A stretch of DNA of 64,000 nucleotides, taken from assembly GCA_025617745.1 (NCBI GenBank), contig CM046861.1, positions 15,133,563 through 15,197,562 on the forward strand. Direction: 5' to 3'. This document shows, piece by piece, positions 3,845-46,869 of this stretch (the first letter of the stretch is position 1; every line of letters starts with the position of its first letter). This DNA comes from Heliocidaris erythrogramma. Its lineage: Eukaryota; Echinodermata; Echinoidea; Camarodonta; Echinometridae. The notes beneath the pieces are model-generated. The model did no database searches and had not been told where the DNA came from. It saw only the letters and a program-made list of their open reading frames with translations. The position numbers and the translations under genes were made by a program.

Positions 3845-4607
3845 CTACAGAAATACAAAATGTATAAAAATAATGATAATGATTAGTATGGGTTTTTTCA
3901 TCTGATGGAATTCAAAAACAATTATAAGTGAGCTCCTCACTAACACCTTTTCCCTGTAAAAAAACAAAACATATTTACTTATTTTTGTATTTTCTTAATC
4001 TACACAGAAATTAATAATTTTCAGTTAAGAAAATGAAATAAAATTTCGAACTAGTGCATTTGTATTTCCTCTCAGTTACAATGACAAACTTATTTTTTTT
4101 TTCTCTTCCCACCCTCTCCCTTATACTCTTTCTTACTTTCTCTCTATTCTTTTTTTTTTTTTTTTTTTGCTACTCTCTTTGTATTGACCTCCTTATAACA
4201 CGATTTTGATATCATATTTCTGTCAGTGATAGGCTTATTTTGTCTTTTAAAGTTGCGGCATCATGGCATATTGCATTCATAAATATGTTGTTATTATTTA
4301 ATTGGATTTTAAAATAATGTTTACATATTTCAACCTCAGTTAGTTTATTTTAGACCGAATAGTATAATTATAAAAATCTAAATCAAACATAAAAGAGGCT
4401 CTCCGCTTTCAAAGCAGATGAAATACCAAAAGCAATACTAGTAAATACCTTAAGCAAAACATAAACACTGGCATAATACTACATGTACTTCCAAAATCTA
4501 TTGAGGCAGTCGCAGCTTGTTCTGTCTGAAGAGCATTCTGGTATTATAATGAAGATTAAATGTTTTGTACATTCATAAACAAAATAATTCACAATAATAC
4601 AACTTAC
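3845..4607 (-). other. Leader intron of T1 with upstream non-coding exon end
   Basis: Read on the minus strand, a donor (exon ...TTTTG, then GTAAGTTG) begins at 4607 and a pyrimidine-rich acceptor ending CTGTAG lies at 3845-3850, eleven bases before the ATG. The same donor and acceptor arrangement recurs at T5 and T4, which supports a shared 5'UTR intron. The extent of the leader exon upstream of 4608 is unknown. Poly-T tracts near 4100 and 4150 lie inside the intron. Confidence 0.65.

Positions 4608-7588: not shown

Positions 7589-7632
<44 letters not shown>
7589..7632. repeat. (TA)n microsatellite bordering the PLE palindrome
   Basis: About 22 TA dinucleotides, immediately adjoining the outer end of the left PLE arm. 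A matching (TA)n tract lies beyond the other arm at 10707-10732. Confidence 0.9.
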
Positions 7633-7634
<2 letters not shown>

Positions 7635-8646
7635 ATGGTGTACCTGCTCAATCCGACCTTAGGTTTCGTGCCTCTCTCAAGACACTCCTCAGGGATAATG
7701 AGCTTGGCTTTGGTGTTCGGCATCTGCGATGCTTCCTGGATCGATTTCACGGTCTGGTGGCTTTCTTTTGGGACATTGTGTGTGCCTACATCCTGTTAGG
7801 ATTTCAGCTCTTTTGTTTAGTGATTCTTTGTTCGCTATGATCAGAAGCTTTTCATCCATGCACAAATTGCATTGGCCACTCTTTCTCCTAAGCAGGTTTG
7901 ACTTTTTAGCAATTTCCCATGATAAGCTGTAACCCGTGTTTGATTTTTTCAATTCCCATACATATTTAGATAGCTGGGTTTCCTTACTGTATTTCTCGTG
8001 GGTGAATGATTTAATATGATTCCTATAGCGCTCCTTGAAGGGCCCTCCCGCTAGACCAAAGTATGCCTTTTCCGTATTCCCATGGCGCACTGTCGCTTTG
8101 TACACAATAGCTTTCTCCAAACATTTTCCATTGAGTGGACATGCGGTTTTTTTGCAATTGCATTTTCTCTCATTTGTGACTGTCGCTTTTGATTTCTCTA
8201 TTACTCTTTTGTTATGTCCTTTTATTATCGAATCGATATTCCTCATACAACTGTAGCCCACTTTCAAAGTATTCTTATTGAAAATCTTATTGAGTTTGTG
8301 CCCCTTGGGGAAATGCTTTTCCACCAGTTTTAAGAATTTGCCCGCTATGTTGGTTTTAACATTAATGCTATATGGGGGGCTAAACCAAGTCACTTTCCTT
8401 CCTCGATTCTTTCTTTTTTTGTTTTTTTGTTTGTTATTTTCATGGTTCTTGGTTTCTTCGACGTACTGCATTTTCTTATCGTATCCGCTTGCCTTTAAAG
8501 CGTCTTCGTACATGGGGGCCGCATTTTGGAAAATGCCCTTCGTCGATGATAACGATGAAATGCGCTTTTCCACAGCTATGGGGATTTGCTTGATTATTGG
8601 AGCGGGGTGATTCGATTCCCGGTTTATGTAGAGTGGGGTATCATTC
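7631..8646 (-). mobile_element. Inverted 1016-bp copy of the PLE 3' end (left arm)
   Basis: This segment is the exact-length reverse complement of 9630-10645 (paired coordinates sum to 18276 at both ends), and the minus-strand translation is identical to the C-terminal part of the plus-strand PLE protein. It carries the GIY-YIG-like region, the stop and a hammerhead-like core at 7664-7692. The long minus-strand ORF 7689-9146 is a chimera of this arm with antisense sequence from the loop and is not a separate gene. Confidence 0.9.
7664..7692 (-). ncRNA. Hammerhead-ribozyme-like core, left PLE arm
   Basis: Minus-strand mirror of the core at 10584-10612: CTGAGGA, a stem II hairpin beginning GTGTC and ending GGCAC, then GAAA. 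It lies just after the PLE stop codon. Hammerhead motifs in the terminal repeats of PLEs are established for the family. I could not resolve helices I and III or the cleavage triplet by eye. Confidence 0.55.
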
Positions 8647-10587
8647 AATGTTGAATTTAGAAAGGTGGATAGCAGTTTCCAAAGAAAGCTTTCTGAGGAT
8701 GTTAAGGAAATTAGGAATTCTAACAAATTACTTGTAAACGCGGATAAAACTAGAAATGTATATTCAATGAATCCACATGAGTACGAAAAGCTGCTAACGG
8801 ACAATATCACATCAAAATATAAAAGGGCAAATAATGAAGTTGTTGAGGAAATTAAAAGCGAATCCGCGTCCATAGCGCAGAAGTTAGATATTGCTGATAG
8901 AGTAAACCCCACTGTCAATAAGGCAGCATTCATAACATTGAAAGACCATAAGGAAAATTTCAACACCCGCCCGCAAGTTAGATTAATCAACCCCACTAAG
9001 TGTGAATTGGGTCGGGCCAGTAAGCGCATTCTCGAACGTATCAATTCCGACATACGATCAAAAACCCGTCCAAACCAATGGACCAGCACAGCCGATGTGC
9101 TCAATTGGTTCGCAAAACTCCCAGACAAACAGTCGCTAACTTTCATTGTATTCGATATTGTCGATTTTTACCCTTCCATTTCGGCCGAGTTATTATCAAC
9201 GTGCATCAATTGGGCCAAAACCTTCACAAATGTGAACAAAATTGAGCATGACACAATATTACATGCCAGAAGAACGCTTTTGTATGACAACGATGAGAAA
9301 GCATGGGAAAAACGAGAGGGAAAAAAGCAATTTGACGTTGCTATGGGAGCATATGACGGGGCGGAGGTCTGTGAACTAGTGGGGCTATACGCGCTATCCC
9401 TAATGAAAGGAAAAATCAACACACATAGTGAAGGGTTATATAGGGACGATGGATTAGCCGTTCTGAAAAAGACCACGGGTAGTAGGGCAGATAGGGCCAG
9501 AAAAGACTTGATCAGTATCTTCAAAAACATGGGATTAAAAATCACAGTCCAAACAAACCTTAAAGTGGTCGATTATTTGGACGTCACGCTTGATCTAGAC
9601 AATGGATCGCATCGACCATTTAGAAAGCCGAATGATACCCCACTCTACATAAACCGGGAATCGAATCACCCCGCTCCAATAATCAAGCAAATCCCCATAG
9701 CTGTGGAAAAGCGCATTTCATCGTTATCATCGACGAAGGGCATTTTCCAAAATGCGGCCCCCATGTACGAAGACGCTTTAAAGGCAAGCGGATACGATAA
9801 GAAAATGCAGTACGTCGAAGAAACCAAGAACCATGAAAATAACAAACAAAAAAACAAAAAAAGAAAGAATCGAGGAAGGAAAGTGACTTGGTTTAGCCCC
9901 CCATATAGCATTAATGTTAAAACCAACATAGCGGGCAAATTCTTAAAACTGGTGGAAAAGCATTTCCCCAAGGGGCACAAACTCAATAAGATTTTCAATA
10001 AGAATACTTTGAAAGTGGGCTACAGTTGTATGAGGAATATCGATTCGATAATAAAAGGACATAACAAAAGAGTAATAGAGAAATCAAAAGCGACAGTCAC
10101 AAATGAGAGAAAATGCAATTGCAAAAAAACCGCATGTCCACTCAATGGAAAATGTTTGGAGAAAGCTATTGTGTACAAAGCGACAGTGCGCCATGGGAAT
10201 ACGGAAAAGGCATACTTTGGTCTAGCGGGAGGGCCCTTCAAGGAGCGCTATAGGAATCATATTAAATCATTCACCCACGAGAAATACAGTAAGGAAACCC
10301 AGCTATCTAAATATGTATGGGAATTGAAAAAATCAAACACGGGTTACAGCTTATCATGGGAAATTGCTAAAAAGTCAAACCTGCTTAGGAGAAAGAGTGG
10401 CCAATGCAATTTGTGCATGGATGAAAAGCTTCTGATCATAGCGAACAAAGAATCACTAAACAAAAGAGCTGAAATCCTAACAGGATGTAGGCACACACAA
10501 TGTCCCAAAAGAAAGCCACCAGACCGTGAAATCGATCCAGGAAGCATCGCAGATGCCGAACACCAAAGCCAAGCTCATTATCCCTGA
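8647..10587 (+). CDS. Penelope-like reverse transcriptase with C-terminal GIY-YIG-like domain, 5'-truncated
   Basis: An uninterrupted frame of about 640 residues. Seen in the sequence: RT block LKDHKENFNTRPQVRLINP; motif A FDIVDFYPS; motif B MGAYDGAEV; motif C YRDDGLAVL with the catalytic aspartate pair; a Lys/Asn-rich linker; a cysteine cluster (CNCKKTACPLNGKC); and a GIY-YIG-endonuclease-like segment with AIVYKATV and AYFGLAGGPFKERYRNH. PLEs copy their RNA at the target site using these two activities. The N-terminus is missing: PLE homology begins exactly where the inverted arm ends (8646/8647), and no ATG is seen at the expected place. The absence of stops across ~1.9 kb and the perfect arms suggest a recent insertion. 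The RT is unlike the PLE at 27005-28630 (different motifs), so two PLE lineages are present. I have not assigned a named clade. Confidence 0.88.
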   Translation, partial: NVEFRKVDSSFQRKLSEDVKEIRNSNKLLVNADKTRNVYSMNPHEYEKLLTDNITSKYKRANNEVVEEIKSESASIAQKLDIADRVNPTVNKAAFITLKDHKENFNTRPQVRLINPTKCELGRASKRILERINSDIRSKTRPNQWTSTADVLNWFAKLPDKQSLTFIVFDIVDFYPSISAELLSTCINWAKTFTNVNKIEHDTILHARRTLLYDNDEKAWEKREGKKQFDVAMGAYDGAEVCELVGLYALSLMKGKINTHSEGLYRDDGLAVLKKTTGSRADRARKDLISIFKNMGLKITVQTNLKVVDYLDVTLDLDNGSHRPFRKPNDTPLYINRESNHPAPIIKQIPIAVEKRISSLSSTKGIFQNAAPMYEDALKASGYDKKMQYVEETKNHENNKQKNKKRKNRGRKVTWFSPPYSINVKTNIAGKFLKLVEKHFPKGHKLNKIFNKNTLKVGYSCMRNIDSIIKGHNKRVIEKSKATVTNERKCNCKKTACPLNGKCLEKAIVYKATVRHGNTEKAYFGLAGGPFKERYRNHIKSFTHEKYSKETQLSKYVWELKKSNTGYSLSWEIAKKSNLLRRKSGQCNLCMDEKLLIIANKESLNKRAEILTGCRHTQCPKRKPPDREIDPGSIADAEHQSQAHYP

Positions 10588-10645
10588 GGAGTGTCTTGAG
10601 AGAGGCACGAAACCTAAGGTCGGATTGAGCAGGTACACCATGGAT
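9630..10645 (+). mobile_element. Right arm of the PLE inverted repeat
   Basis: Reverse complement of 7631-8646 over 1016 bp. The 983-bp loop (8647-9629) carries the single-copy RT core. The arm includes the 3' coding end, the stop and the hammerhead-like core. Confidence 0.9.
10584..10612 (+). ncRNA. Hammerhead-ribozyme-like core at PLE 3' end
   Basis: CTGAGGA at 10584-10590 fits the CUGANGA box. It is followed by a hairpin (GTGTCTT pairing with GAGGCAC, G-U pairs included) and GAAA at 10609-10612, the second invariant box. It overlaps or directly follows the PLE stop codon. Catalysis is inferred from family knowledge, not shown. Confidence 0.6.
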
Positions 10646-10706
10646 TAATATGCTCTGCTGTAAGGCATAGAGCACTCTTTGGAAGTACTCAATATTTCAA
10701 CTTTCG

Positions 10707-10732
10707 TATATATATATATATATATATATATA
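10707..10732. repeat. (TA)n microsatellite beyond right PLE arm
   Basis: About 12 TA repeats, mirroring the (TA)n tract at 7589-7632 on the other side of the palindrome. Confidence 0.85.
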
Positions 10733-24023: not shown

Positions 24024-26109
24024 AATGATGTGCATGCGTGTGCCTCTTTGTCTTTGTATACATTTGTCTTTTTGCCTCTATTTAAGAAATAGACTTGTTT
24101 TTTATTAAGATTTATACATTTTAACCTCTCTTCATATATTTATGAATGGGATTTATTTTTGATTCATAACATATATGTATCAAATTCTATAAAAAACTTT
24201 CACATTTTATGTAATGACTGAATGATTGATTTCTACGTTTTCTTCAGTATTGATTTGTAACGTTGTGGAATGTCTTTCTTTTCATAGAAGGGTATGTATG
24301 TATGTATGCCTCAATCAGCCTTCTCCTATCCTCGTTTGAATTTTTCCTGTAGCGAACTGGGTGATAATCTGCCATTTTTTTCAATGTGAAACGGATAGGA
24401 GGTAAACGTGGTACTCATAAGCGCAACATGTAGAATGACCGAGGGCTTCCTAGCTCCCATTTTTAAAGGTTTTCCAAAAACTTACAATACACATTAAATC
24501 GAATGCACTTATTTAAAACTTGCCAGCCTTTTGATGAAATTGAATGACCGAAGAGTAGCAGAAGCCGGTTGCAGGTGAAATTGGATGCTTCGATTTCAAA
24601 CTTTTGCATGTACGTCAAATTTGAATGAAGAATTTTAAAACTCTGTTGCACAAAAAGTTCATTTGCACGCGTATAAATGACTTTGGATGCTCACTGGTTT
24701 AAATCGTTTGCTCTTTCTTCAGATGAGAATGAACCATTTGAAGAATTTGTTGCACGAATAGTGAATTTGGACGAATCAAAGTGATTTGATTGCTCTTTCC
24801 TTAAAGCGTTTGCTCTTAATAGGAATCTTGACGACCCATTTGAAAAATTCGTTGCACAGATCACGAATTTGAAGGAGCAAAAACGAAACTGCATTTACAT
24901 GTACCATGGCGATCATATCGTTTGTGAATTCGAATGCTCGAAATGTGAAATAGATTGAACAAACTGTGAAATTGAACGGGAAAACCTATAGTAATGGTGA
25001 CTAAGGAATCCAATTACAAGATTTGAAAGTGTAGAATAAGTGGAAAATTATGATTTTGTATATGTAAAGTATGTCTTTTCTGAAAATGAGATCCAACTTC
25101 GTAATCGACGAAATAAATCATTGGCATAGTTGGATGATACTGTTTTCACATTACAGTTTATTGATTGGCAAGTGTTAAAAGGGAATATCCATGTAGGAAG
25201 GGTTGTTTTTTATGCATGTTGCATTAATTAGCATTGGAATAGTAAATTGATGACAAGGGAATCCATGTAGATGATTCAGTATAATATGTTAATGTGAGAC
25301 TCTGTGGTCTCACAATGCAGCTCTTGCTGTAGTGGAGCTTTGTTTAGGGAAAGAAAAGTGAAAGAATCTTCGGATTTTGGTCCGAAAATAAGAGGAATCA
25401 TTTAGGCTCTATGGTGGAGAGAGCTTGAAGCCTAAACGTTGAGGTCTCAACTGGCTTAGTGCCATCTACGTTGGCTTTTTGTTTAGCATTAATGGAAATT
25501 TCGTCAGAAGAATATTTTTCACGATTTCAGACGAACTGCTTATCATTGGCAAGGATCGAAATATTTTATTACTAAAACACCGCTTCGTAGTGTCCACTGA
25601 ATAATCAAGGCCAAGTCATTGTAACTATCTGTAGTATTTTGGCATATTTTTATTGGAACATAACTTGATATCGTTGCGAGATTTGAATGAATATTGAGGA
25701 AAATGGGAACACTTCTTCATAATACCAGATGTGCTGGCCGGGTTTGACATCTTTAAAAAATGTTTCAAAACTAAGCGTAAGCCAATACGAATCTGAGATA
25801 ATTTAATAGTGATTCTAATGCGAGTAAATTAATAATTAAAATATAAATGACGGTGTCTAAGACAGAAAGTAAATCTATCACAGCATCAAGTTAAGAAAGT
25901 CTTAAATGACTTAAAAACAAAGGCAGATAAGAAAAAGTGATAAAATTAAACCGGGTTTAACATTCAGAATTGATGTAGAAATTTCGCCTTTAGTAGGCTG
26001 AAAAGTTTGGAAAGCAAAATTTTCATGATTTAGTTAAAGAATTCAATTGGAAAACAAGCTGCTGAAAACTGCTTATCCAATAAAAGCGAGCCAATGGAGT
26101 AAAGTGGAG
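24024..26109. other. No gene; short tandem repeats
   Basis: Two ~100-bp diverged tandem units lie at about 24706-24800 and 24800-24885 (GTTTGCTCTT ... ATTTGAA...ATT.GTTGCAC). A further copy of the 240-bp repeat lies at 25000-25260. The remaining sequence has no recognised feature. Confidence 0.45.
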
Positions 26110-26116
26110 TCAAAAG

Positions 26117-26155
26117 GGGCCTGAGCTTTCGATCCTAGTAGAAACTTCGTCAGAG
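26117..26155 (-). ncRNA. Hammerhead-ribozyme-like core, 3' end of PLE-2
   Basis: On the minus strand: CTGACGA (26153-26147) fits CUGANGA; then an imperfect stem (GTTTC/GGATC) with a TACTA loop; then GAAA (26130-26127). It lies downstream of the degenerate PLE-2 coding region in the same orientation, where PLE terminal repeats place it. Confidence 0.55.
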
Positions 26156-26818
26156 GCAAAAAGACAAACATAAAAAACAAGACAAGCATATATATAGACT
26201 ACAGACACAAAACAGTGCCTGTAACAGGAACTGTAAGGGGGGGCTGGGGCACAAAAAATGGAAACAAAAGGAGAGTGTGGGGAGCCAAGAGCAAGGAAGC
26301 AAGTGGGTGTGGAGCAAACACAAAGGCTTGGATATGCAAGGACAGTAAGGCTTCTTACGGAAAGTTTTGTCACCGTTTTCACCGCGGCCAAAGTTAAAAA
26401 GGCCGATTAGCGGGATTTTCTCCCGGATCTTGTCATATCCATCGGCGACTCTATGAGCCCCAAGCTCAAGTGTGGGTAATCTGTGGAAGCAAAGGATAAA
26501 TGGGGAGGCAACATCAAACAGGATAAGGAACAATGCAATGACAAGGGGTAAGAGAAAGGAAGAAGTACTGTACAAGTCCAGTACAGTGGAGTGGTAGGGC
26601 AGAAAATAAAGAGGGAGTCGAGTTGTCAGACACCATGTGCATTATATATGGCATATAGAGTAAAGTGTAGTGAAAAAATATATATTTGCTATCTACTGTA
26701 TACAAGACTATAAGATGTAAAGCATACTATATACTAAAAAATACATACATGTGCATATAAAGTCTGTAATATATGTGTCTAAACCCAACGAGGAGGTAAA
26801 ATGCAAATAAAATATTTC

Positions 26819-26851
<33 letters not shown>

Positions 26852-27004
26852 TATATATGTATATGCATGGGAGGTGTAAGGGTGCATACAGTGAGAAATA
26901 TGTAATAAAAATAGGGCACGGGGCCTGTATGGGAGATGGGAGGAGTAAAATAAACTAAATGGGAGTGGAAAGTATAATGTAAGGAAGGGGAGTAAAAAGA
27001 TGTA
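26156..27004. other. PLE-2 3' noncoding region with (TA)n tract
   Basis: Sequence between the PLE-2 stop and its terminal hammerhead-like core. It includes an interrupted (TA)n tract at 26818-26862. No independent gene. Confidence 0.5.
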
Positions 27005-28630
27005 TTAATCATTTCCCTCCTGGATGTTGAGGCCATGAGGTTGGATGGTGCGAAGTCGTCTCATCCAGTACTTCTCCCTGCTGGTACGGACTGTGTCGGG
27101 ACGGGTACCTAAAGATTCAATGCCCTGTAGAATCATATCACTGATGGAATGGTTAGGAAGCCTGGTTAAAATGGTGGCCCACTGGAGTGTCAAGCTTGGC
27201 TGTTTTGACAGTGGATCTGTGCCCATAGAAGCGTCTCTTGAGTGTGGTCTTGGTTTCCCCTACGTACTGGGTCCGGCAGACTCTGCAAGTGATGAGATAT
27301 ACAACATTAGTGGTGGAGCAAGTGATTGGTTTGGCGAGGGAGGTTGGTAGAGTTGCTGGTGAAAGTGTCGCCCTCGTGGATGTGTATAGCACATACGGTG
27401 CATTTGTTGGCTGTACATTTGAAGGTGCCGTGCTGAATGGGAGAAGAATGGCCGGTGAGAGAGGGGACTTCAGCACGAACGATGAGATCCTTGAGGTTGC
27501 GGGGGCGTCGGTAAGACAGGATTGGGGTACTGGGAACAGTACCCCAATTCTGAGACGATCAGAAGTGTTGAGAATACGGTGGTTGTCATGAAGGATATTG
27601 CGGAGAGGAGGGAGATTGGGGTGGAAGGTGGTCACGAGAGGTATTCCGTCATTGGTATCCTGGCTGTCAGTTTTCTGTTTGAGAACTTCAGATCTGGGGA
27701 GGGAAAAAACTTTGTTGATGGCTTGTTGGGCTGTCCTGGCGCTATGGCCCCTGGCTACGAGATGTCTCTTCAAGTTCCTGGCATGGAAGGAAAAGTCGGA
27801 ATCCTCAGAGCAGATACGGCGAAGTCTGAGGGCCTGACTGTAAGGGATGCCGGTTTTGCAGTGACGGGGATGGCAGCTGGATGAGTGGAGGTACTGGTGG
27901 GTATCTGTGGGTTTGGTGTAGAGAGTGGTGGTGAGACGTTTAGACTCCTTCTTGACTGTGACATTGAGGAAGTTGGTCTTCTGTTGGGAGAAATCAGAAG
28001 TGAATTTGATGGTCCTGTGGAAGGAATTGATGTGGGCAATGAATGTTTGGAGGCTGTCTTCCTCCCTGGTCCAGATGAAGAAGATGTCGTCGATGTAGCG
28101 CCACCAGATCCATGGACGACAGGGGGCTGAATCTAGCAGCTGCTGCTCCAGCTTGGTCATGAAGAGACAGGCGTAGGAAGGAGCCATCCGTGTGCCCATC
28201 GCTGTGCCGAATGCCTGTAGGTAGTGTTTGTCCATGAAAGTTGTTTTTTGTTAGTGACATGAGAGATTTGATGTCGGATACTGGGGGACTGGAGTGACCG
28301 CTGTTAGCCAATGCTGCACATGAGGCTGGAATACCTTCGTCATGGGGGATGTTGGTGTAGAGGGATGAAACATCAAAAGTGCCGATGATTGCAGTCTCGG
28401 GAATCTGGTCCTTGATGTCATTGAGTTTCCTGAGAAAGTCTGGTGTGTCATGGATGTAGGAGGGTGCAGTTGAGACAAGGGGTTTAATGTGGTGATCAAC
28501 AAAGAGGGAGATGTTCTCTGTAGGGGAACCATTTCCCGAGAGGATGGGTCGACCAGGGTTGCCAGGTTTGTGGATCTTGGAGAGGAGATAGAAACGAGCA
28601 GGTTTGGCATTAGTGGGGGAGAGAAAGAAT
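27005..28630 (-). pseudogene. Penelope-like element PLE-2: RT plus canonical GIY-YIG, frameshifted
   Basis: Minus-strand frames carry the middle and end of a classical PLE protein: ARFYLLSKIHKPGNPGRP near the right edge, FDVSSLYTNIPH (motif A), GTAMGTRMAPSYA (motif B), YIDDIFFIW (motif C), and a C-terminal GIY-YIG nuclease (VYLITCRVCRTQYVGET, then RRFYGHRS), ending GLNIQEGND. Frame changes near 28245 and 27155 break the protein. The N-terminal third is missing beyond about 28630, where PLE similarity stops. PLE 5' truncation is usual. The motifs are of the Neptune/Poseidon type (from memory), unlike the PLE at 8647-10587. Confidence 0.88.
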
Positions 28631-29799
28631 TCAATTAATAAAATTGACTATTTTGACAAACGATAGAGGCAAGGTTGGATTTTTGGTGGCTTTAGTTTAA
28701 ATGCAATCAATGCTCTGATCTGTTCCTTATTGTGCCCTTGGGGATTTTAGAATACAATCCATTTGCTACAAAATGCACACCTATTTTGTTATTTTCAGAC
28801 TGATGTGACAACCTGGAGGATAAGCAAAGTGCAAGTAAACGACACTAGATCTTGCAGGGTCTGACGGGATTTCGTCATAGCACGGAAACCCGAGTCAGAT
28901 TAGTGAGGATATGGTGTGTTTTTTTTGCAGCATTCAAAATGCTTGACGGACGTATACCACAGTCACAGGAGTCCGATCTGACAAGCGCTTTGATATGGCT
29001 GACGTTTTAGCACAGCAATTTCACTGGAGTCTGAATGGATAAGAAATTATTTGGCAGCATTTTAAATATGAGAATGACTGAGATTAGTCGAGGGTGGTAA
29101 AGCGTTACAAGGGGATTCAAGTTTCATTATCTTTGACAGATACTGTAGACTTCTTCAGATATTTTGGGATACTTTGGTTACATCATCTTTTTAGTTTCAC
29201 ATTGATAAACTTTTCAGTCTTTCAAAATTTTTGAAATAAATTTTCAGGTATCATTTATCTCTGTTATAATATCTCTGTTATAGCTGTAAATCTGATCAAT
29301 ACCGGAAAGATAATATTGTATATGAGAAGCCAAGGTATTAAAGCAATTGTTCTATTAGAGTTTTTAGAGTTTACATTGAAAAGACAGGTTAAAGAATGAG
29401 ATCTGATCACGTTTTGTTTTTAACATGTTTACTGTGATAAGCGAAAGAGGGGGATTTTGTAAGAAAAGGAAGCAAGTTTAGTCATACCTGGGCCTATTAA
29501 ATGATTGTAGCGCGTTTGTGTGAGGTATATGGTCAGGTACAATATTGTACCTCAGTTCCCTTCCAGCTGGCGATGCTAAAACAGCTACCATCTGTGTCAG
29601 TTATGTAACAGGTACGGTAGGTGGATAAGTGAAAAGGCAGAAGATCATTAATATTTTTTTTATAGACGATAGCTTCGTTCACATAATCATTGAAATTTTT
29701 GAGGAACCTTCGAAGGTAAACCCAAAGTATTTTGTTATTTTTTGCATAATTTTGTAATTCTGTATTGTATAGTTATTTTGCAATACACACGCACACTGA

Positions 29800-29805
<6 letters not shown>
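28631..29805. other. No gene recognised
   Basis: AT-rich sequence between PLE-2 and a small hairpin element. No domain-bearing frame and no clear repeat. Confidence 0.4.
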
Positions 29806-29838
<33 letters not shown>

Positions 29839-30109
29839 AACAATTAATGAAGTCCAGAGAAGACATTGGTAATGCATTGAATTCCAACTTTTCAACCTTT
29901 TCTGAGCAGAGCTTCACATACATATTTCACTTTGTTCATTACCCTGAGGAAGATCCGTGAGGATCGAAAATTTGGTGAAAATAAATATAAAAGTTGGAAT
30001 TCAATGCATTACCAATGTCTTCTCTGGACTTCATTAATTGTTTCTCTCTTCATGCTTTTCCAACACGCGGTTATGAAATATCATTATATATTCATATATA
30101 TATATATAT
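29806..30109. mobile_element. Hairpin element flanked by (TA)n, PLE-end type
   Basis: 61-bp arms 29832-29892 and 29989-30049 are reverse complements. (TA)n tracts lie outside at 29801-29820 and 30094-30109, with (GA)n on the left. The ~96-bp loop carries a hammerhead-like core. I read it as a non-autonomous copy of PLE terminal sequence, an inference from that core and from similarity of design to 39831-40774. Confidence 0.65.
29944..29969 (+). ncRNA. Compact hammerhead-ribozyme-like core
   Basis: CTGAGGA (29944-29950), then a perfect five-pair stem GATCC/GGATC closed by the tetraloop GTGA, then GAAA (29966-29969). Both boxes and stem II are intact. Helices I and III are not resolved by eye. 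Confidence 0.6.
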
Positions 30110-30264
30110 TTGTGTAAGGAAATAACATATACAACAGCTTTGGCAACTCCCGTGGAAATAAATACAATTGTGAAAGAATTGGGAGAATAATGGTTGCGTA
30201 GCTTAAATCAAAGTTCCCCAGAGCTGTCCTCCCCTTTTTGAAATTTTTGCAAAGGCTGAAAAAA

Positions 30265-30336
30265 TGTCTCCGCCGGGAATCGAACCCGGGTCGTTGGCTC
30301 AGAACGCCAATGCCTTAACCACTAGACCACGGAGAC
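30265..30336 (-). tRNA. tRNA gene, predicted anticodon TCT (Arg)
   Basis: A 72-nt cloverleaf: acceptor GTCTCCG/CGGAGAC, D stem GTCT/AGGC, anticodon stem TTGGC/GCCAA with seven-base loop GTTCTGA, T arm CCGGG-TTCGATT-CCCGG, discriminator A. A box TGGTCTAGTGG and B box GGTTCGATTCC are good, and T6 follows as a Pol III terminator. Counting from U33 gives anticodon UCU (arginine). The loop has an unusual G32, so the amino-acid assignment is tentative. Confidence 0.8.
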
Positions 30337-30677
30337 GGGTTAGTGGTTTCGGCGACACCAGATCCAATTGACCGACAGATTTTGACAAATCTTCAACCTT
30401 AATTAATTAATTCCTTTGTCGGGGGCAGGTGAGTTTTGAACAAAGACAAGCCGCGTGCCTCAGCTGGATCCAAGCGAATGCTTTAAGATACATGTATACA
30501 TTAGAATAAGTATTATTAACATTTGTGTAAGGAAATAACATATACAACAGCTTTGGCAACTCCCGTGGAAATAAATACAATTGTGAAAGAATTGGGAGAA
30601 TAATGGTTGCGTAGCTTAAATCAAAGTTCCCCAGAGCTGTCCTCCCCTTTTTGAAATTTTTGCAAAGGCTGAAAAAA

Positions 30678-30749
30678 TGTCTCCGCCGGGAATCGAACCC
30701 GGGTCGTTGGCTCAGAACGCCAATGCCTTAACCACTAGACCACGGAGAC
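30678..30749 (-). tRNA. tRNA gene, second direct copy
   Basis: Sequence identical by eye to the copy at 30265-30336, 413 bp further on, with the same promoter boxes and T6 terminator. Same tentative anticodon TCT. Confidence 0.8.
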
Positions 30750-30940
30750 GGGTTAGTGGTTTCGGCGACACCAGATCCAATTGACCGACAGATTTTGACA
30801 AATCTTCAACCTTAATTAATTAATTCCTTTGTCGGGGGCAGGTGAGTTTTGAACAAAGACAAGCCGCGTGCCTCAGCTGGATCCAAGCGAATGCTTTAAG
30901 ATACATGTATACATTAGAATAAGTATTATTAACATTTGTG

Positions 30941-30993
30941 TAAGGCATTGGCGTTCTGAGCCAACGACCCGGGTTCGATTCCCGGCGGAGACA
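30941..30993 (+). pseudogene. Truncated tRNA (5' part lost at inversion junction)
   Basis: Keeps the anticodon arm, T arm and 3' acceptor strand but lacks the 5' acceptor strand and most of the D arm, including the A box. The break falls at TAAGG, the junction of the inverted repeat. It cannot fold as a tRNA. Confidence 0.85.
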
Positions 30994-31334
30994 TTTTTTC
31001 AGCCTTTGCAAAAATTTCAAAAAGGGGAGGACAGCTCTGGGGAACTTTGATTTAAGCTACGCAACCATTATTCTCCCAATTCTTTCACAATTGTATTTAT
31101 TTCCACGGGAGTTGCCAAAGCTGTTGTATATGTTATTTCCTTACACAAATGTTAATAATACTTATTCTAATGTATACATGTATCTTAAAGCATTCGCTTG
31201 GATCCAGCTGAGGCACGCGGCTTGTCTTTGTTCAAAACTCACCTGCCCCCGACAAAGGAATTAATTAATTAAGGTTGAAGATTTGTCAAAATCTGTCGGT
31301 CAATTGGATCTGGTGTCGCCGAAACCACTAACCC

Positions 31335-31406
31335 GTCTCCGTGGTCTAGTGGTTAAGGCATTGGCGTTCTGAGCCAACGACCCGGGTTCGATTCCCGGCG
31401 GAGACA
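31335..31406 (+). tRNA. tRNA gene, inverted copy
   Basis: Complete 72-nt gene on the plus strand, matching the two minus-strand copies, with A and B boxes and T6 downstream. Same tentative anticodon TCT. Confidence 0.8.
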
Positions 31407-39434: not shown

Positions 39435-39830
39435 AAAATCATGACAGTTTTTCATGACAAACGAACAATGAAGTGAGTTATGAACAATATTAATAATGAT
39501 CACGAGCTAACACTACAAATGTTACTTCCGGCTTCCGCGGTGGCGGATCCAGGCAGGGACGCGATCAAGTACACATGCAGTCTGGTATCAAATGTTCTGC
39601 TGTTTTTTTTTTTAATCTATAATTTGCATAGTTTGGCGAATACCCCCATTTGTCTTATTTTCCCCGTTCGACCTTCTCTCCGATTACCTAGACTCACTCA
39701 AACTTTTGCAGTCTTTAGAAAAACAAATAAAAACAAATCATTGTAAATATATATATATATATATATATATATAGTGGAAGAAATTTCCCAAGAGCAAAAC
39801 ACTGGCGGTCACTCATAGTTGTGGAATGGA
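39435..39830. other. Upstream flank of T3; no gene
   Basis: TRIM-unit flank similar to 4609-4900. It contains GTGGCGGATCCAGG (39540), a hAT-terminus-like word, and a (TA)n tract at 39748-39772 next to the following palindrome. Confidence 0.5.
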
Positions 39831-39896
39831 ATACAGCGAAAGAAATGGACTATGAAATGGCCGTAGCTTCTATACTTCTCTTTTATTCAATCAAGC

Positions 39897-39920
39897 TTTC
39901 GATCTAAAGATCTTCATCAG
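39897..39920 (-). ncRNA. Hammerhead-ribozyme-like core, left arm
   Basis: Mirror of 40685-40708: CTGATGA, stem GATC/GATC with loop TTTA, GAAA. Confidence 0.65.
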
Positions 39921-40684
39921 GACGACTGTGTAAACAAAATACATAAGTACAATATGATGGCTGAAATAAAAAATATATAAAATAAAGTAAAGTTTAACTC
40001 TTGATTACTTATAATTTGGTTATCATTAATGTTAAAAGTAAATCGTTATGAACTACTTCTCGTTCTCTACTGCTAAACACATTATTCTAGTAAAACTGCT
40101 ACTACCCGGCACGTATCTGATCTTTGTTCCAAATATATCTTTATAATAACTATCAGCACCATAATTGCTTATTACATATTTAAAATCAGCATAAAAGTGT
40201 GACAACAATTCATTTATATATGTGTATGTGTTCAAACTGAGAGTATAGAGTAATTAATAAGTATAGACAATGAGAACAAAAAATTACCATGTATAGAGGT
40301 TCAGAGTACTAAGAACTTCATCCCGTCTTTGATGAAATCAACGGGTTTTCCATGAATCTATAGAGACGTATTAACACATACACATATATAAATGAATTGT
40401 TGTCACACTTTTATGCTGATTTTAAATATGTAATAAACAATTATGGTGCTGATAGTTATTATAAAGATATATTTGGAACAAAGATCAGATACGTGCCGGG
40501 TAGTAGCAGTTTTACTAGAATAATGTGTTTAGCAGTAGAGAACGAGAAGTGGTTCATCACGATTTAATTTTAACATTAATGATAACCAAATTATAAGTAA
40601 TCAAGAGTTAAACTTTACTTTATTTTATATATTTTTTATTTCAGCCATCATATTGTACTTATGTATTTTGTTTACACAGTCGTC

Positions 40685-40708
40685 CTGATGAAGATCTTTA
40701 GATCGAAA
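40685..40708 (+). ncRNA. Hammerhead-ribozyme-like core, right arm
   Basis: CTGATGA at 40685-40691, the commonest form of the first box. It is followed by a four-pair stem GATC/GATC with loop TTTA and GAAA at 40705-40708. It is preceded by CAGTC, which could supply a GUC cleavage triplet. This is the best match in the window. Confidence 0.68.
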
Positions 40709-41854
40709 GCTTGATTGAATAAAAGAGAAGTATAGAAGCTACGGCCATTTCATAGTCCATTTCTTTCGCTGTATATATATATATATATATATACAATAAA
40801 ATAGAGTGACAAGGAGTCAGATTATAATGCCAATGTAAACAAAAAGCATTCAAAATGTCACTCCAACACATTGAAACTGACCAAGAGTTATAAGAACTTT
40901 AATATCTATTCCTCATTCACTGGATATTAGCCTAAATGTACTGATCGTATTATTCTCTTTCACCTGCGACAAGGAATAAAACAATTAACACAATTCTCTG
41001 CGATTGGCCATGGTATTTATTCATATTGAAACGTTCAAATTATCGTTTCAAATATATCGCAATGATAATGGTGGTTCCAAAACAGTTAACGATAATAATA
41101 ATAGTAATAACAATAATCAGAATGATATTCAGAATAATATCTCTTTCAAGCGGTGTATCGTTTTCCAACAACACTAATACAGATATAATAATGATAATGA
41201 TCATACAATTTTCCTCATGTATTATTTGCTAAGCACACATTGATTAATATTATCTCATCCAACATAATTTATAACACATACTGTTCCATAACATAAGAGC
41301 AAGCAGTCTGAATGAACCTAGGAAGTAACCCGGCCGGGATTTAATGCCGTCACCGCTCAGCTCGCCTTTGATGACGATCGAACATCGAACCGAAATATTC
41401 ACCGCCCTACGAGCTGTGCGACATATTCTCACTTTTCGCCTGGCGCATAATTTCGGTTTCCACAAGCAAGGAGAGCTAGTCTCTTCTTCCAGCCTGACTC
41501 GAAATTTCGGCTAACGAACAAGGAGCACACCCAATTGAATAATGAAAGTATCAACGCTGATCTCTGGCCTGAGACACAGTAGCGCGATAATCAACACCCC
41601 TTTGCCTAACTCTGAGCGACAACTAAAGGCCGTATTGGTTATCCCCAGTATACAAACAAAGTGTAACAAATATTTAAACGGGTGCAATAAGTATCAAATG
41701 CATTCAGAATACCCATCATTGGCTCGCAGACTGTTTCACTTGCATAAGATAATAATTTATGTACAACAACATGCTAATTCCGCGATGAGGCGGCCTAAAA
41801 TTGGGTAAAATTCCGCCAAATCGCACTAAAATGAGACACAAACAAGGTCTCTAT

Positions 41855-42400: not shown

Positions 42401-43057
42401 TTACAGACGAGAGTGCGTTACCAAAAATTCGGACAGTAATAGGGAGGTACCCTTGTCGGAAAGATGTACCCCGTCTTCATAATAAAGGTCAACTCGTTGG
42501 AAAGTAATATGTGGGTGTGCGATAATAACTCCTCCCATTTGGTGAGTGATCGCCCTCGCGTATTTGTTTGCTGCCCTGCGAACTCTGTCGGCCATGTTCT
42601 GTCCATCTGGAGGGAATGTTTTATATTTGATGGGGGTGATAATATCGGACCAGATTACTTTCACGTTGCCCGATATTGTTGATAAATAGTGGAGACAACT
42701 TGCGATTTCACCGAGCAATTGTCTCTTTCGGGTCACTCCTACGTCATTGATACCAACATGAAGAAGTACATGAGTTGGACGGCTTACCATATGTTTGAAA
42801 CTCTCAATGTAATGTCTCACGTCGGCTAATCGGAGCCCCCGTTTACCTCTCCAGATGAGGCGCACTGGAAGGCCAAGATTGAGATTTTTCCTTTCTTTGG
42901 CCAAAAGGGCCGCCCAGTGCACGATTGAGTCCCCGATGACCCACACCGTGGGCTGAAAGGATAAATAGCCGGAACCTGCAAGTTGTGATAAACAGAAAAA
43001 AGGGGGAGGGCAACCCGCAGTAACTTGCTCTATTTTATATCCAACAATGGGTAACAT
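42401..43057 (-). CDS. SGNH/GDSL hydrolase of the Ngaro element
   Basis: A 218-codon frame from an ATG at 43057. Block I holds the nucleophile serine (WVIGDSIV, about residues 37-45). Block III is LHVGINDVG (~residue 118). Block V is DGVHLSDKG with the Asp-His pair (~residue 195). The second conserved glycine block is less clear. SGNH enzymes hydrolyse esters, and their presence as an extra ORF is known in Ngaro retrotransposons; its role there is not established. The first ~30 residues look unlike the family. A polypyrimidine tract and acceptor (TTGCAG) end at 42976 and could make a spliced start there. The frame is intact although the neighbouring recombinase has a stop. Confidence 0.85.
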   Translation of the reverse strand: MLPIVGYKIEQVTAGCPPPFFCLSQLAGSGYLSFQPTVWVIGDSIVHWAALLAKERKNLNLGLPVRLIWRGKRGLRLADVRHYIESFKHMVSRPTHVLLHVGINDVGVTRKRQLLGEIASCLHYLSTISGNVKVIWSDIITPIKYKTFPPDGQNMADRVRRAANKYARAITHQMGGVIIAHPHITFQRVDLYYEDGVHLSDKGTSLLLSEFLVTHSRL

Positions 43058-43217
43058 AACAACATGTCCAGTTATTCACCATTTGACAAAACATTACAAA
43101 TATATTTACACAATATTCTAAAACTATACCCACAGGTAGATGTATTGTAACGTAAGCCCTCATGGGGTATGACGGTGATTATTTAACGATATGTCATAGC
43201 TATATACCTTAAAGAGC

Positions 43218-44093
43218 CTACAATCTAATGTAACCTTGGAATGCCCCTGAAACCCAACGACCCATTCTCTGTATTTGTGCATCAGAAAAACCTGCCATAG
43301 CAGCGGACGTTGCGGCTCCTATGCGAAATGAATGGGAAGTGTAATTCCGAACCGGCAATCCCAAAAATGAGACACTCCTAGTTAACACCTGATTAAATTC
43401 GTGACGGGCTAAAGGAGTGCCATCGAATTTCCTAAAAAATGCATCTCCATGGCTGTGGCGAACGTCCAAATACCTAACAATTGCTTTAACTGGGCACATC
43501 GAACCGCTTTCGGGTATTACTATGACACACCCCCTCCCATGTTAATCCGTTTTGGAAGCGCGGATTCGCACGCTGAGATTGCGCCGAGGGGTATTCCCCC
43601 GCACTATGACGTCACTGGCCAAAAGAGGGATTAAGCTGCCCTGGGACGCAAATTCGCCAATGCGCAAAAAGGCAAAAAATGCCAATAGAAAAGCGGCTGC
43701 ATATAATTTTGCATTATATGACGTTTTGCATACCAAGGGTAATGCTTTTAATAGCTTTTGCAGAATGGGCATGGTGATGGGGCAGCGTGCGTCCTGATGA
43801 GCATGGCGCCTGCGGCAACCCTCTACCAGGCGCCTAATGGGAAATGATTGTGTAATGTCGTTTCTATTGTTGCTGCGTTCGTAAAAGGACAAGGCCTCAA
43901 TATATGTGGAAACCGTGCTAGCCGAGTATTTGTGCCAGGACATATAAGAAATAAAAAGAGCAATCTGATCGATACTCGGAGGGGCCGTAATAGACAAATT
44001 GTAATCAATACGAAAACGCTGAAACGTATCCCAGGCAACTTTATAAGTACGCATAGTCATGATAGTGTTCTGAGCGCGAGAAGAGCTCAACAA
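43218..44093 (-). pseudogene. Tyrosine recombinase (YR) of the Ngaro element, one nonsense codon
   Basis: The N-terminal SAM-like region (YKVAWDTFQRF ... SASTVSTYIEAL) is followed by the catalytic domain: FLRIGEF (first Arg), then, after an in-frame TAA at 43542-43544, MCPVKAIVRYL, HSFRIGAATSAA (His-x-x-Arg), GRW (Trp in the His/Trp position) and the nucleophile tyrosine in GYIRL just before the stop. The frame is the same on both sides of the TAA, so a single point change from a glutamine codon (CAA) is the simplest explanation. YRs circularise and integrate DIRS-type cDNA through site-specific recombination. The 5' end overlaps the RT stop by a few bases and has no clear ATG, so expression by fusion or reinitiation is likely. 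Confidence 0.85.
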
Positions 44094-46315
44094 ACTGGCT
44101 CGCTCCCGATTAAGTTCCTCCAGAGATGGCTGGGAATCGGCGTTCCTTGCTGCTCGGCATTGGGGGCCAGACGTCGAAATCGAGACATCTGAAAACGGGA
44201 TAAAGAGTCGGCGATGTCGTTAGTATTACCTGGTACATATTTGGCTCTAAACCATATATTTGATGTCAAGCATGTCACTACGAAATGGCGCATAAGTCGC
44301 ATAATGCTGGTGCAACTAGATGTTTGCTTGTTAATGGCGGAAACCACGGATTGATTATCAGACCAAAATGTGACTCTCTTCCCCGACAGTCGATTGCCCC
44401 ACAAATGAACACCTACGACAATGGGAAACAACTCTAAGAAGGCAATCGAATACTTTGCCTCCTTGACTTCATCTGGCCATCTGGCCTGTGCCCACAGCCC
44501 ATCAAAATAGACACCGAGCCCAATGCTAGCCGCTGCATCTGTATAGAAGTGAAAACAGTCATTATTGCGCCAAATGCTATCAGCGAACATAACGGTCCCA
44601 TTAAACTGCTGCAGGAATGTACTCCAGGCTGACAGGTCTGCCTTAGCCCCATTGGTAAGCCTTATATGGTGATGGGGCCGGCTCACCCCCCTAGTCAAAT
44701 CTATTAAACGCCTAAGAAACGCCCTACCTGGACCTACTGCACGGCTTATGAAATTGAGGGAACCGATTAAAGATTGAATTTGGCGCAGAGTAAGCTTTGA
44801 TCGTGACGAATGGCAGCTGATCATATTACGTAGCGATTCTAGTTTTTCACCTGGGACCCTCACCTGCCCGCGCACAGTATCGATTTCCAAACCTAGGTAT
44901 GTAATGACCCTCGTAGGGCCCTCGGTTTTCTCCAACGCCAGTGGAACGCCGAAACGTTTGCACATATATTGAAAGCAACGCATTATGTAGCGACATTCTT
45001 CCTGAGATGAACCGGCAAAGAAAAAATCATCCAGGTAGTGAATAATTTGTTCAGAAGCCGCGATACGCCGACAGCTGCTCTCTAGAAACACGGAAAAACG
45101 TTCGAACATGGCGCACGATATACTGCAACCCATAGGCATACATCGGTCATAATAGTATTTACCCTCTACACACATACCAAGCAAATCAAAATCGTCGGGA
45201 TGCACAGGTAATAATCGAAAGGCTGATTTAATGTCAGCTTTTCCCATGAATGCCCCGTGATCTAATTTGGTAATCATCTTTACTGCCTTGTCAAAATTAG
45301 AGTATGAAACACTACATTCCTCCTGATTGATGTTATCGTTAACAGAGGCTCCGTGAGGAGAGGATAAATGTTGTATCAACCGAAACTCGCCCGGAGTTCG
45401 CTTGGGGACAACGCCTATTGGGGAACAACGAAAGTTTGGAAATGGCATTGATGGAAATGGGCCCACTATTCTACCCAACGAAACTTCCTTTTCTATCTTC
45501 TGCCTAACTATTTGTGGATGTTGATAAGCCGATTTAAGATTCCTGGAGCTCATCTGCACTCGTTCACCCCCAAAACTCAAAGAAAAGCCGTTTGAAAATC
45601 CCGATATTAGCCGCGACGCATCTGCCCAATTTTCGTAAGAGCGAAGAAATGGCAGCATAGCATTTAATCTAACTGGAGTTGGGGCTAGGACCCGATTTGT
45701 TTGATGAGGGTTGCGGGCGGGAGCAGGCAAAGGATCCATGGGATGCGTTCCCGCATCGATCGCATTTATGGGAGTACTTGCAGCCCTGGCCGCGAGCACA
45801 GCGGCCGCTGGCATTGAACGCAAAGCAGAGCCCGGCTTGTGATCGTGGACGGCCGGGTGCTGCGGACCCGTCCCGCCTATACGCGGGTTGCCAGTCGCGA
45901 CGGGGGCCCGTTGCCTGCTGTCTGCCCCTTTGAGTCCCCCAGCTTTGATTTTGCCCCTTCCCGAAGGCTCGAAAATTGCCACGATCCGGCCGAGCATGAG
46001 CAGCCATAACTCTGCATCCACGATCGCCCAAGAGCGCTCTGGTTGGCGAGCCTGGCGAAGGCGGAACTGAACGTCATAGTCGGCCCAATTGTAGCCGCAA
46101 TTGGCGGCAGTTCGCACAGTACTCATATACTTTAATAATTCCCGAGCTCGGAGAGGGTGTCGTTCTGTAAAGACGGACATATATATCAGCATGGCGCTGG
46201 TCCACTGCTCGATGCTCCGAATTATTGGAGATCGATTTGCAGGCCGCAACTGCAATCCCGCACCCGAAGAGAAAATTAAAGCTAACCGATCTTCACTTAA
46301 ATTTGGTGCTGCCAC
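44087..46315 (-). CDS. Ngaro reverse transcriptase - RNase H
   Basis: A 742-codon open frame. Residues 1-~110 read as part of the Gag-like protein. The true polymerase region is ~215-500: VVPKRTPGEFRLIQHLSSP (fingers), GKADIKSAFRLLP (motif A, Asp), MPMGCSISCAMFE (motif B), YLDDFFFAG (motif C, residues 427-430) and TYLGLEID. RNase H is ~585-705, with the acidic residues in FYTDAAAS, LELFPIV, WSDNQSVV and NDIADSLSRF. The order RT-RNase H, then YR, without integrase, places it in the DIRS/Ngaro group. The C-terminal stop overlaps the YR frame. No inactivating change is visible within the RT itself. Start unclear; probably made by frameshift or fusion with Gag. Confidence 0.9.
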   Translation of the reverse strand: MAAPNLSEDRLALIFSSGAGLQLRPANRSPIIRSIEQWTSAMLIYMSVFTERHPLRARELLKYMSTVRTAANCGYNWADYDVQFRLRQARQPERSWAIVDAELWLLMLGRIVAIFEPSGRGKIKAGGLKGADSRQRAPVATGNPRIGGTGPQHPAVHDHKPGSALRSMPAAAVLAARAASTPINAIDAGTHPMDPLPAPARNPHQTNRVLAPTPVRLNAMLPFLRSYENWADASRLISGFSNGFSLSFGGERVQMSSRNLKSAYQHPQIVRQKIEKEVSLGRIVGPFPSMPFPNFRCSPIGVVPKRTPGEFRLIQHLSSPHGASVNDNINQEECSVSYSNFDKAVKMITKLDHGAFMGKADIKSAFRLLPVHPDDFDLLGMCVEGKYYYDRCMPMGCSISCAMFERFSVFLESSCRRIAASEQIIHYLDDFFFAGSSQEECRYIMRCFQYMCKRFGVPLALEKTEGPTRVITYLGLEIDTVRGQVRVPGEKLESLRNMISCHSSRSKLTLRQIQSLIGSLNFISRAVGPGRAFLRRLIDLTRGVSRPHHHIRLTNGAKADLSAWSTFLQQFNGTVMFADSIWRNNDCFHFYTDAAASIGLGVYFDGLWAQARWPDEVKEAKYSIAFLELFPIVVGVHLWGNRLSGKRVTFWSDNQSVVSAINKQTSSCTSIMRLMRHFVVTCLTSNIWFRAKYVPGNTNDIADSLSRFQMSRFRRLAPNAEQQGTPIPSHLWRNLIGSEPVC

Positions 46316-46869
46316 AGAGGGCTTGGTCAGTAAACCGAGATCAACAAATTCACCCCGCCAGATTTTGTCTTTCAGGGAGATGTCAAGAGTGGCGCCTAGC
46401 TCGTCGCATACACCTACGAGTTGTTGGGGATAATTGAATTGCGACGAGCTCCCCAGCGGCCCCGCAGGGCTTGCAGGGATGCCGCAGGCATGGCACGGGT
46501 GCTAGTGCCGATCGCTGGCTGAAGAGGCGCATTTTGTTCGTTCAGCCCAAAAACCGCACTATCATTATGTAATGCCAGAACCGGCCATGACTCACCTGCC
46601 TCGTTGTCATTTTGGAGCACATTCGCTTCCTCCTCATCGATGTTGTCACCCAATCCACGGATTCGAACTGGAATCGGTTCCGGGTCCCGGGGGTGGCTGG
46701 GCACAGGCGCAGGCGTCTGCGAAGTCGTAGCCGCCGGCACTGCCGGCGAGGGGCGATGCAAAGCACGGGTGGAACCTTTCTGTTTAGAGGCCGTCTTTTT
46801 CCCCGTTGTCGCCCTTGTTGTCCGCTGCTTCTTCGTGCCTGGTTTTGACTTAGGCATTGTGACTGCCAA
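45669..46869 (-). pseudogene. Ngaro Gag-like protein (frame-broken)
   Basis: Starts at ATG 46869 with a basic, Ala/Pro-rich N-terminus (KPGTKKQRTTRATTGKK). The Gag-like reading then moves to a second frame near 46450 (QLVGVCDELG, WRGEFVDLGLL) and a third near 46010, where a C-terminal zinc region is seen: CFAFNASGRCARGQGCKYSH (CCCH finger), then CDRCGNASHGSFAC (knuckle-like). It ends at the stop at 45669. Gag would package the element RNA. The frame changes look like damage, though one programmed shift into RT cannot be excluded. Confidence 0.7.

Follow-up and report, generated by a model that had tools for sequence, protein, structure and literature searches.

Layout of the palindrome and its surroundings

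The window analysed here, a stretch of 64,000 nucleotides of Heliocidaris erythrogramma (contig CM046861.1), contains a palindrome at 39748..40792, where a first, sequence-only reading had placed it. Its inverted arms (39831-40237 and 40368-40774) are 407 nt each, 99% complementary (402 nt and 99.0% identity as trimmed by BLAST), and separated by a spacer of 130 nt. The (TA)n tracts described for both sides are present, the right one from about 40772 to 40793, and the interior is indeed free of an RT gene, with no stop-to-stop frame of at least 120 aa overlapping the palindrome. Two features were absent from that reading: the left end exceeds the right end by 57 nt (39774-39830), and the left copy continues across most of the spacer, to about 40366-40376 (Table 1). 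The optional 57 nt, called the tail in the following, define two types of ends, tail (T) and no-tail (N). On the minus strand, the tail contains an ATG followed by a frame that stays open to the tail end (MSDRQCFALGKFLP, read by eye), which may be the start of a PLE ORF, as in other PLEs.

The palindrome is surrounded by RING/B-box genes and several retroelements. Minus-strand ORFs at 42401-46501, perhaps a DIRS-like element, encode an RT and a GDSL-like hydrolase; a possible tyrosine recombinase was also noted there by eye. Three tRNA genes of equal score are located at 30265-31406, the first two inside a 413-bp tandem duplication (30108-30945). A comparison with a plasmid collection gave no match to the sequence.

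Table 1. The palindrome and its flanks, in positions of the window.
Feature	Positions	Strand	Remark
Left (TA)n target flank	39747..39773		tandem repeat, 27 bp
Tail, 57-nt extension, T end	39774..39830	-	found in left copy only
Left (T) copy, antisense, 5'-truncated near reference 3755-3765	39774..40366	-	exact walk; BLAST reaches 40376
Hammerhead-like motif, left arm	39881..39939	-	core and descriptor; outer stem by eye
Right (N) copy, sense, 5'-truncated at reference 3901, tail absent	40373..40771	+	mapping to reference copy
Hammerhead-like motif, right arm	40666..40724	+	core and descriptor; outer 9-bp stem also in folding
Right (TA)n target flank	40772..40793		sequence reading, inverted-repeat search

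A hammerhead-like motif in each arm

Both arms carry CTGATGA-A-GATC-TTTA-GATC-GAAA, the hammerhead-like core noted before (40685-40708 on the plus strand and 39897-39920 on the minus strand). The complete motif of each arm reads UUUUGUUUA-CACAGUC-GUC-CUGAUGA-A-GAUC-UUUA-GAUC-GAA-AGCU-U-GAU-UGAAUAAAA and consists of a bulged stem I, an extra A followed by stem II, and a palindromic AGCU that replaces stem III. It follows the type I order of CUGANGA, stem II, GAA, U-H, and stem I according to a descriptor written post hoc, and departs from the type I pattern by the one extra A before stem II and by an inner stem I of just 3 bp. A PLE-type descriptor, composed after the cores had been seen, found five cores in the window versus one in 120 first-order Markov windows; the five are those of the two palindrome arms, the pair at 7692/10584, and one at 29944. 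Judged by hand, each arm contains a hammerhead-like core of the minimal PLE kind.

The covariance search proposed as a check of this motif turned out negative, which counts against the earlier reading. The Rfam hammerhead models gave no match at gathering cut-offs in the whole window, and none at E<=10 in either 39600-41000 or 40650-40760. However, this result carries less weight because PLE hammerheads are minimal and lack helix III, as described in the part of PMC6155905 covered here, and because even the motif of a sister PLE at 10584 reached only 16.8 bits with Hammerhead_HH9 (E 0.057, gathering score 52). Folding of four hammerhead regions was uninformative (z values of 0.29, 0.02, −1.30, and −0.17).

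In the right arm, cleavage is predicted to occur after 40712. The predicted cut would lie about 59 nt upstream of N, so that the putative start sites T and N would both be on its 3' side. Whichever strand is transcribed, the RNA contains one hammerhead in sense orientation, close to the 3' end of the transcript, and the second one as antisense. Therefore, the idea that the RNA could cleave itself at both ends in either transcription direction is wrong by geometry.

Long copies of the PLE family behind the arms

PLEs are a third class of eukaryotic retrotransposons. A search of the genome (1.06 Gb, 26 contigs) with the arm, which the sequence-only reading had proposed, revealed that long copies carry an RT frame and a 3' UTR that terminates in the arm. 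A 501-bp query yielded 95 matches (40 of the 349 first-look candidates were scored), and 20 loci were examined together with about 7.5 kb of upstream sequence. The RT of the long copies was recognised by PF00078 (E 1.6e-9 for the frame of L035 and 7.1e-10 for that of L041); the window copy itself lacks it. The GIY-YIG signal of the long-copy frame was weak (PF01541, 17.6 bits, under the cut-off of 22.6, E 0.0048), and a comparison of the frame with PDB sequences gave no match. The longest arm seen, that of L041, reaches back about 4.1 kb from the N end, to reference position 227. Tail-containing ends were seen only as outer ends, with none upstream of the ORF in the 20 loci, and a tandem source copy (a direct second copy, pLTR) was not seen in any of these loci.

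An open frame of about 60 codons in the arm had been considered as the end of the PLE ORF. This was dropped, since the ORFs of L041 and L035 stop 1.2-1.4 kb upstream of the N end, and the G that removes a stop codon in the right arm is an A in 27 of the 28 other insertions. In the long copies this arm frame is 3' UTR, in line with the palindrome being coding-free. The proposal of two PLE terminal segments joined head to head is thus supported: the arms are the 3' end of an RT-carrying PLE family and do not belong to an unrelated DNA transposon. As far as the letters tell, the palindrome represents two 5'-truncated copies of one PLE 3' end, arranged head to head inside (TA)n; one ends at the putative start site N, and the other extends 57 nt beyond this point, to the putative start site T.

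Pairing of T and N ends across the genome

Genome-wide, the end patterns detected 117 N ends and 120 T ends, and none with the reversed controls. Outward-facing neighbours within 12 kb were analysed for 100 of the 117 N ends and 100 of the 120 T ends. Among these listed ends there were 50 head-to-head neighbours, 48 of which were T-N, two T-T, and none N-N, whereas 2,000 shuffles of the labels gave a mean of 25.1 T-N pairs and a maximum of 37. Five direct neighbours and one tail-to-tail pair were also present among the listed ends. The spans ranged from 73 to 9933 bp, with a median of 671 bp; the longest is more than double the length of the reference and may reflect chance proximity. About half of the listed ends had no listed partner, and single copies exist (L023, L024, L038, L048); therefore, twins are not obligatory.

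When 26 head-to-head loci were read in letters, 21 had a simple structure, a single T end paired with a single N end (L022, L032-L034, L036, L037, L039-L045, L049, L050, the window, and L053-L057). The other five were complex: L025/L029/L052 is T-T with an N end beyond, L051 has three T ends, L046 has a T end from another family, and L026 and L047 contain an inverted fragment that lacks a T end. Both T-T loci have a duplicated flank, 1268 bp with 99.7% identity and an N end beyond at C10:52.24 Mb, and a repeat of 150 bp at L051, and we read both as later rearrangements. The complex locus L046 (G000:C3:53058604-53068024) is a chimeric twin: one end begins with tail sequence from a third PLE family before changing to the first family, and the other is a first-family N end.

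In the fetched loci, TA adjoins every N end (24 of 24) and every T end that has a complete tail (19 of 19), in one case via a broken run; these counts are biased towards TA, since TA made up about 20 nt of the query and was a requirement of the end patterns. The flanks of L056 are not pure TA, and TATATACATACATA is present on both sides, a possible target duplication of 14 nt.

With (TA)n as a common target, such pairs might also arise when the same PLE inserts twice, independently, into a single tract, or by later recombination between copies, and the direct neighbours, the tail-to-tail pair, and the duplicated flanks show that other arrangements exist. However, separate insertions should also yield N-N and other orders, but N-N was found in none of the 50 head-to-head neighbours among the listed ends. 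They should, in addition, leave TA between the copies, which was absent in most of the junctions read, and the junctions are 0-6 nt overlaps or short inserts. Since the arms of an insertion also have rare alleles in common (see below), we regard this origin as scarcely credible.

Variable inner breakpoints

To compare the inner ends, 30 sequences were mapped onto one real PLE copy, the reference. The inner ends of the twins vary, for example 4072/2334 (L033), 4257/3641 (L036), 3952/3256 (L039), and 3645/3643 (L045), compared with about 3755-3765 and 3901 in the window. As judged by eye among the mapped sequences, there was no clear bias towards a longer no-tail arm. In 16 junctions that were walked, the two copies overlap by 1-6 nt in eight, are flush in one, and are separated by inserts of 3-34 nt in seven. 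Because the truncation points differ between otherwise similar palindromes of the genome, most palindromes of the family were probably formed anew upon insertion. Not all breakpoints are independent, since the T arms of L028 and L032 stop nearly alike, at 3703 and 3702.

These differences bear on the earlier view of the palindrome as a minimal mobile unit of its own, or alternatively as a foldback DNA transposon. One full-length head-to-head pair would fit this view, as the junction of L041 recurs in L025/L052/L029, elsewhere and with other flanks. However, the mapped twins differ in their inner breakpoints, so that the minimal unit is unsupported for the window copy; moreover, the two outer ends of a twin differ, as just one side has a tail, and the arms correspond to the 3' UTR of an element that encodes an RT. 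The identical terminal repeats and constant interior of foldback elements or MITEs are lacking, as the ends differ by the tail and the inner breakpoints vary. Likewise, the direct tandem hammerhead repeats of retrozymes were not found at the locus, where the arms are inverted and there is no tandem array. We therefore consider an autonomous mobile unit highly improbable.

Similarity of the two arms of one insertion

In the 18 of 19 pairs with sufficient overlap, 46 of 9152 sites (0.50%) differ between the two arms of an insertion, versus a mean of 1.00% for deranged arm pairs, none of 1,000 derangements being as low as the true pairs. The difference persisted for reference positions 3901-4290 alone (0.51% versus 0.94%, 0 of 2,000 as low) and without L041 and L046 (0.54% versus 1.00%, 0 of 2,000 as low). 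Alleles private to both arms of one insertion numbered seven, versus 0.24 expected and at most four. At 13 common variable sites the arms agreed in 32 of 36 comparisons versus 57% after shuffling (3 of 5,000 as high), computed before the last loci were added. An origin of the arms from two random RNAs, which had been our first expectation, is opposed by these shared rare alleles. On the other hand, some of the arm differences in L032, L041, L045, L049, L050, and the window involve alleles that also occur in other insertions. Such differences are not expected from one RNA and speak against a single RNA template. Gene conversion between the arms could mimic a shared template.

Rare alleles common to both arms would also be expected from self-priming, in which a strand folds back and copies itself so that one arm is a copy of the other; it was proposed, with an antisense template, in 2013 (in the part of PMC3846280 covered here). 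A local fold-back visible at the L034 junction and the nearly equal inner ends of L045 are compatible with this mode. However, a copied arm should end like its template, yet 48 of the 50 neighbours among the listed ends are T-N; T-N twins thus need two starts. Furthermore, the T arms of L037 and L034 hold nothing but tail sequence at the outer end, followed by a jump, and the N arm of L053 is shorter than 20 nt, so that in these insertions neither arm could have templated the end of the other. Self-priming is therefore an unlikely explanation.

Probable twin-primed insertion

We consider it likely that the palindrome is a twin-primed PLE insertion with starts at T and N that were joined at their ends, and thus a by-product rather than a unit made to move. 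It is probably a dead-end double PLE insertion, in which two copies of the element's 3' end meet head to head. Related insertions in the genome suggest that copying is, as a rule, initiated once on either side of the cut and from two distinct start points. The RT/GIY-YIG protein, possibly acting as a dimer, would cut both strands of a (TA)n site, and both 3' ends could prime, as (TA)n is self-complementary. One RT would initiate at T and a second at N, using either a single RNA or RNAs from one source; their cDNAs would end at different positions and then be joined, with an overlap of 0-6 nt or with short inserts.

More tentatively, and with somewhat less than an even chance in our view, the reaction may be an asymmetric one in which two RT subunits hold one RNA at adjacent start sites, each extending one (TA)n strand. 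If so, a normal insertion would be recognisable by one tail end plus one no-tail end, and the tail would correspond to the distance that separates two active sites on one template. The origin of inverted PLE ends was left open in 2013 and was partly addressed by biochemistry in 2024. Dozens of separately formed and readable twins now allow the models to be compared from genome sequence, and they predict for the enzyme two starts per insertion, one at each site.

Other PLE families in the window and the genome

The one-of-each rule has been shown for one PLE family only. Seven head-to-head T-T pairs, one of them inside a tandem array, were found in a second family (among 25 of 92 T ends, with close neighbours picked by eye and T ends only), and the rule may therefore not be general. 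In the window, a copy of this family spans 7591-10732, with inverted arms of 1022 bp that are 100% complementary, hammerhead cores in both arms, TA tracts on both sides, and a right end that is 55 nt longer; Pfam gave nothing for the frame of this family. At G000:C11:19213279-19216082, T ends of the second family recur every 389 bp, five on the minus strand and then three on the plus strand, a satellite-like, head-to-head array.

A small, old twin of a third PLE family is located at 29799-30109 (arms of 84 bp, 87% complementary, core at 29944), and its right end seems to be about 38 nt longer. A further PLE, with RT and a weak GIY-YIG, lies at 26095-28647 on the minus strand; its hammerhead-like core (26127-26153) failed the descriptor.

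Comparison with known systems

In LINE-1 twin priming, each of the two target strands primes a cDNA, the two products are joined in inverted orientation, and different parts of one RNA are used. In the twins described here, by contrast, both cDNAs would start close to one and the same end of the RNA, at sites separated by 57 nt.

Inverted PLE ends have been published before, as has the tail. Inverted pLTRs and 3' extensions are also mentioned in a curation guide (PMC8969392, in the part covered). A strict one-of-each (T-N) rule was not stated in the parts of the open-access literature covered. The closest biochemical counterpart is Poseidon PAc, a PLE of Anolis. In the passages of PMC11167929 covered, purified PLE protein cuts and extends both strands, two adjacent start sites have a spacing that equals the tail, and hammerhead mutants still inserted. 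Our family resembles it in its AT-rich target, in a pair of neighbouring putative start sites that would account for the tail, in a hammerhead-like motif upstream of these sites, and in the proposed cutting and extension of both strands. Poseidon PAc is described there as tandem repeats, whereas here two copies meet head to head within (TA)n and each pair has a single tail, and those passages contain no per-insertion pairing of start sites. In bulk, the two strands were reported not to differ in start site (PMC11167929, same passages), which would fit insertions that each use both start sites, with either strand receiving either start.

For Pen2/Pen3 of the rotifer Adineta vaga, the covered part of PMC3846280 describes few copies and proposes self-priming on an antisense template; here, tens of twins can be counted, and the count opposes copying of one arm from the other. 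The metazoan retrozymes (PMC7229834, in part) are similar in that they are non-coding units with type I hammerheads that were suggested to be moved by PLEs. However, they are direct tandem repeats of about 170-400 nt that give rise to circular RNAs, whereas the arms of the palindrome are inverted.
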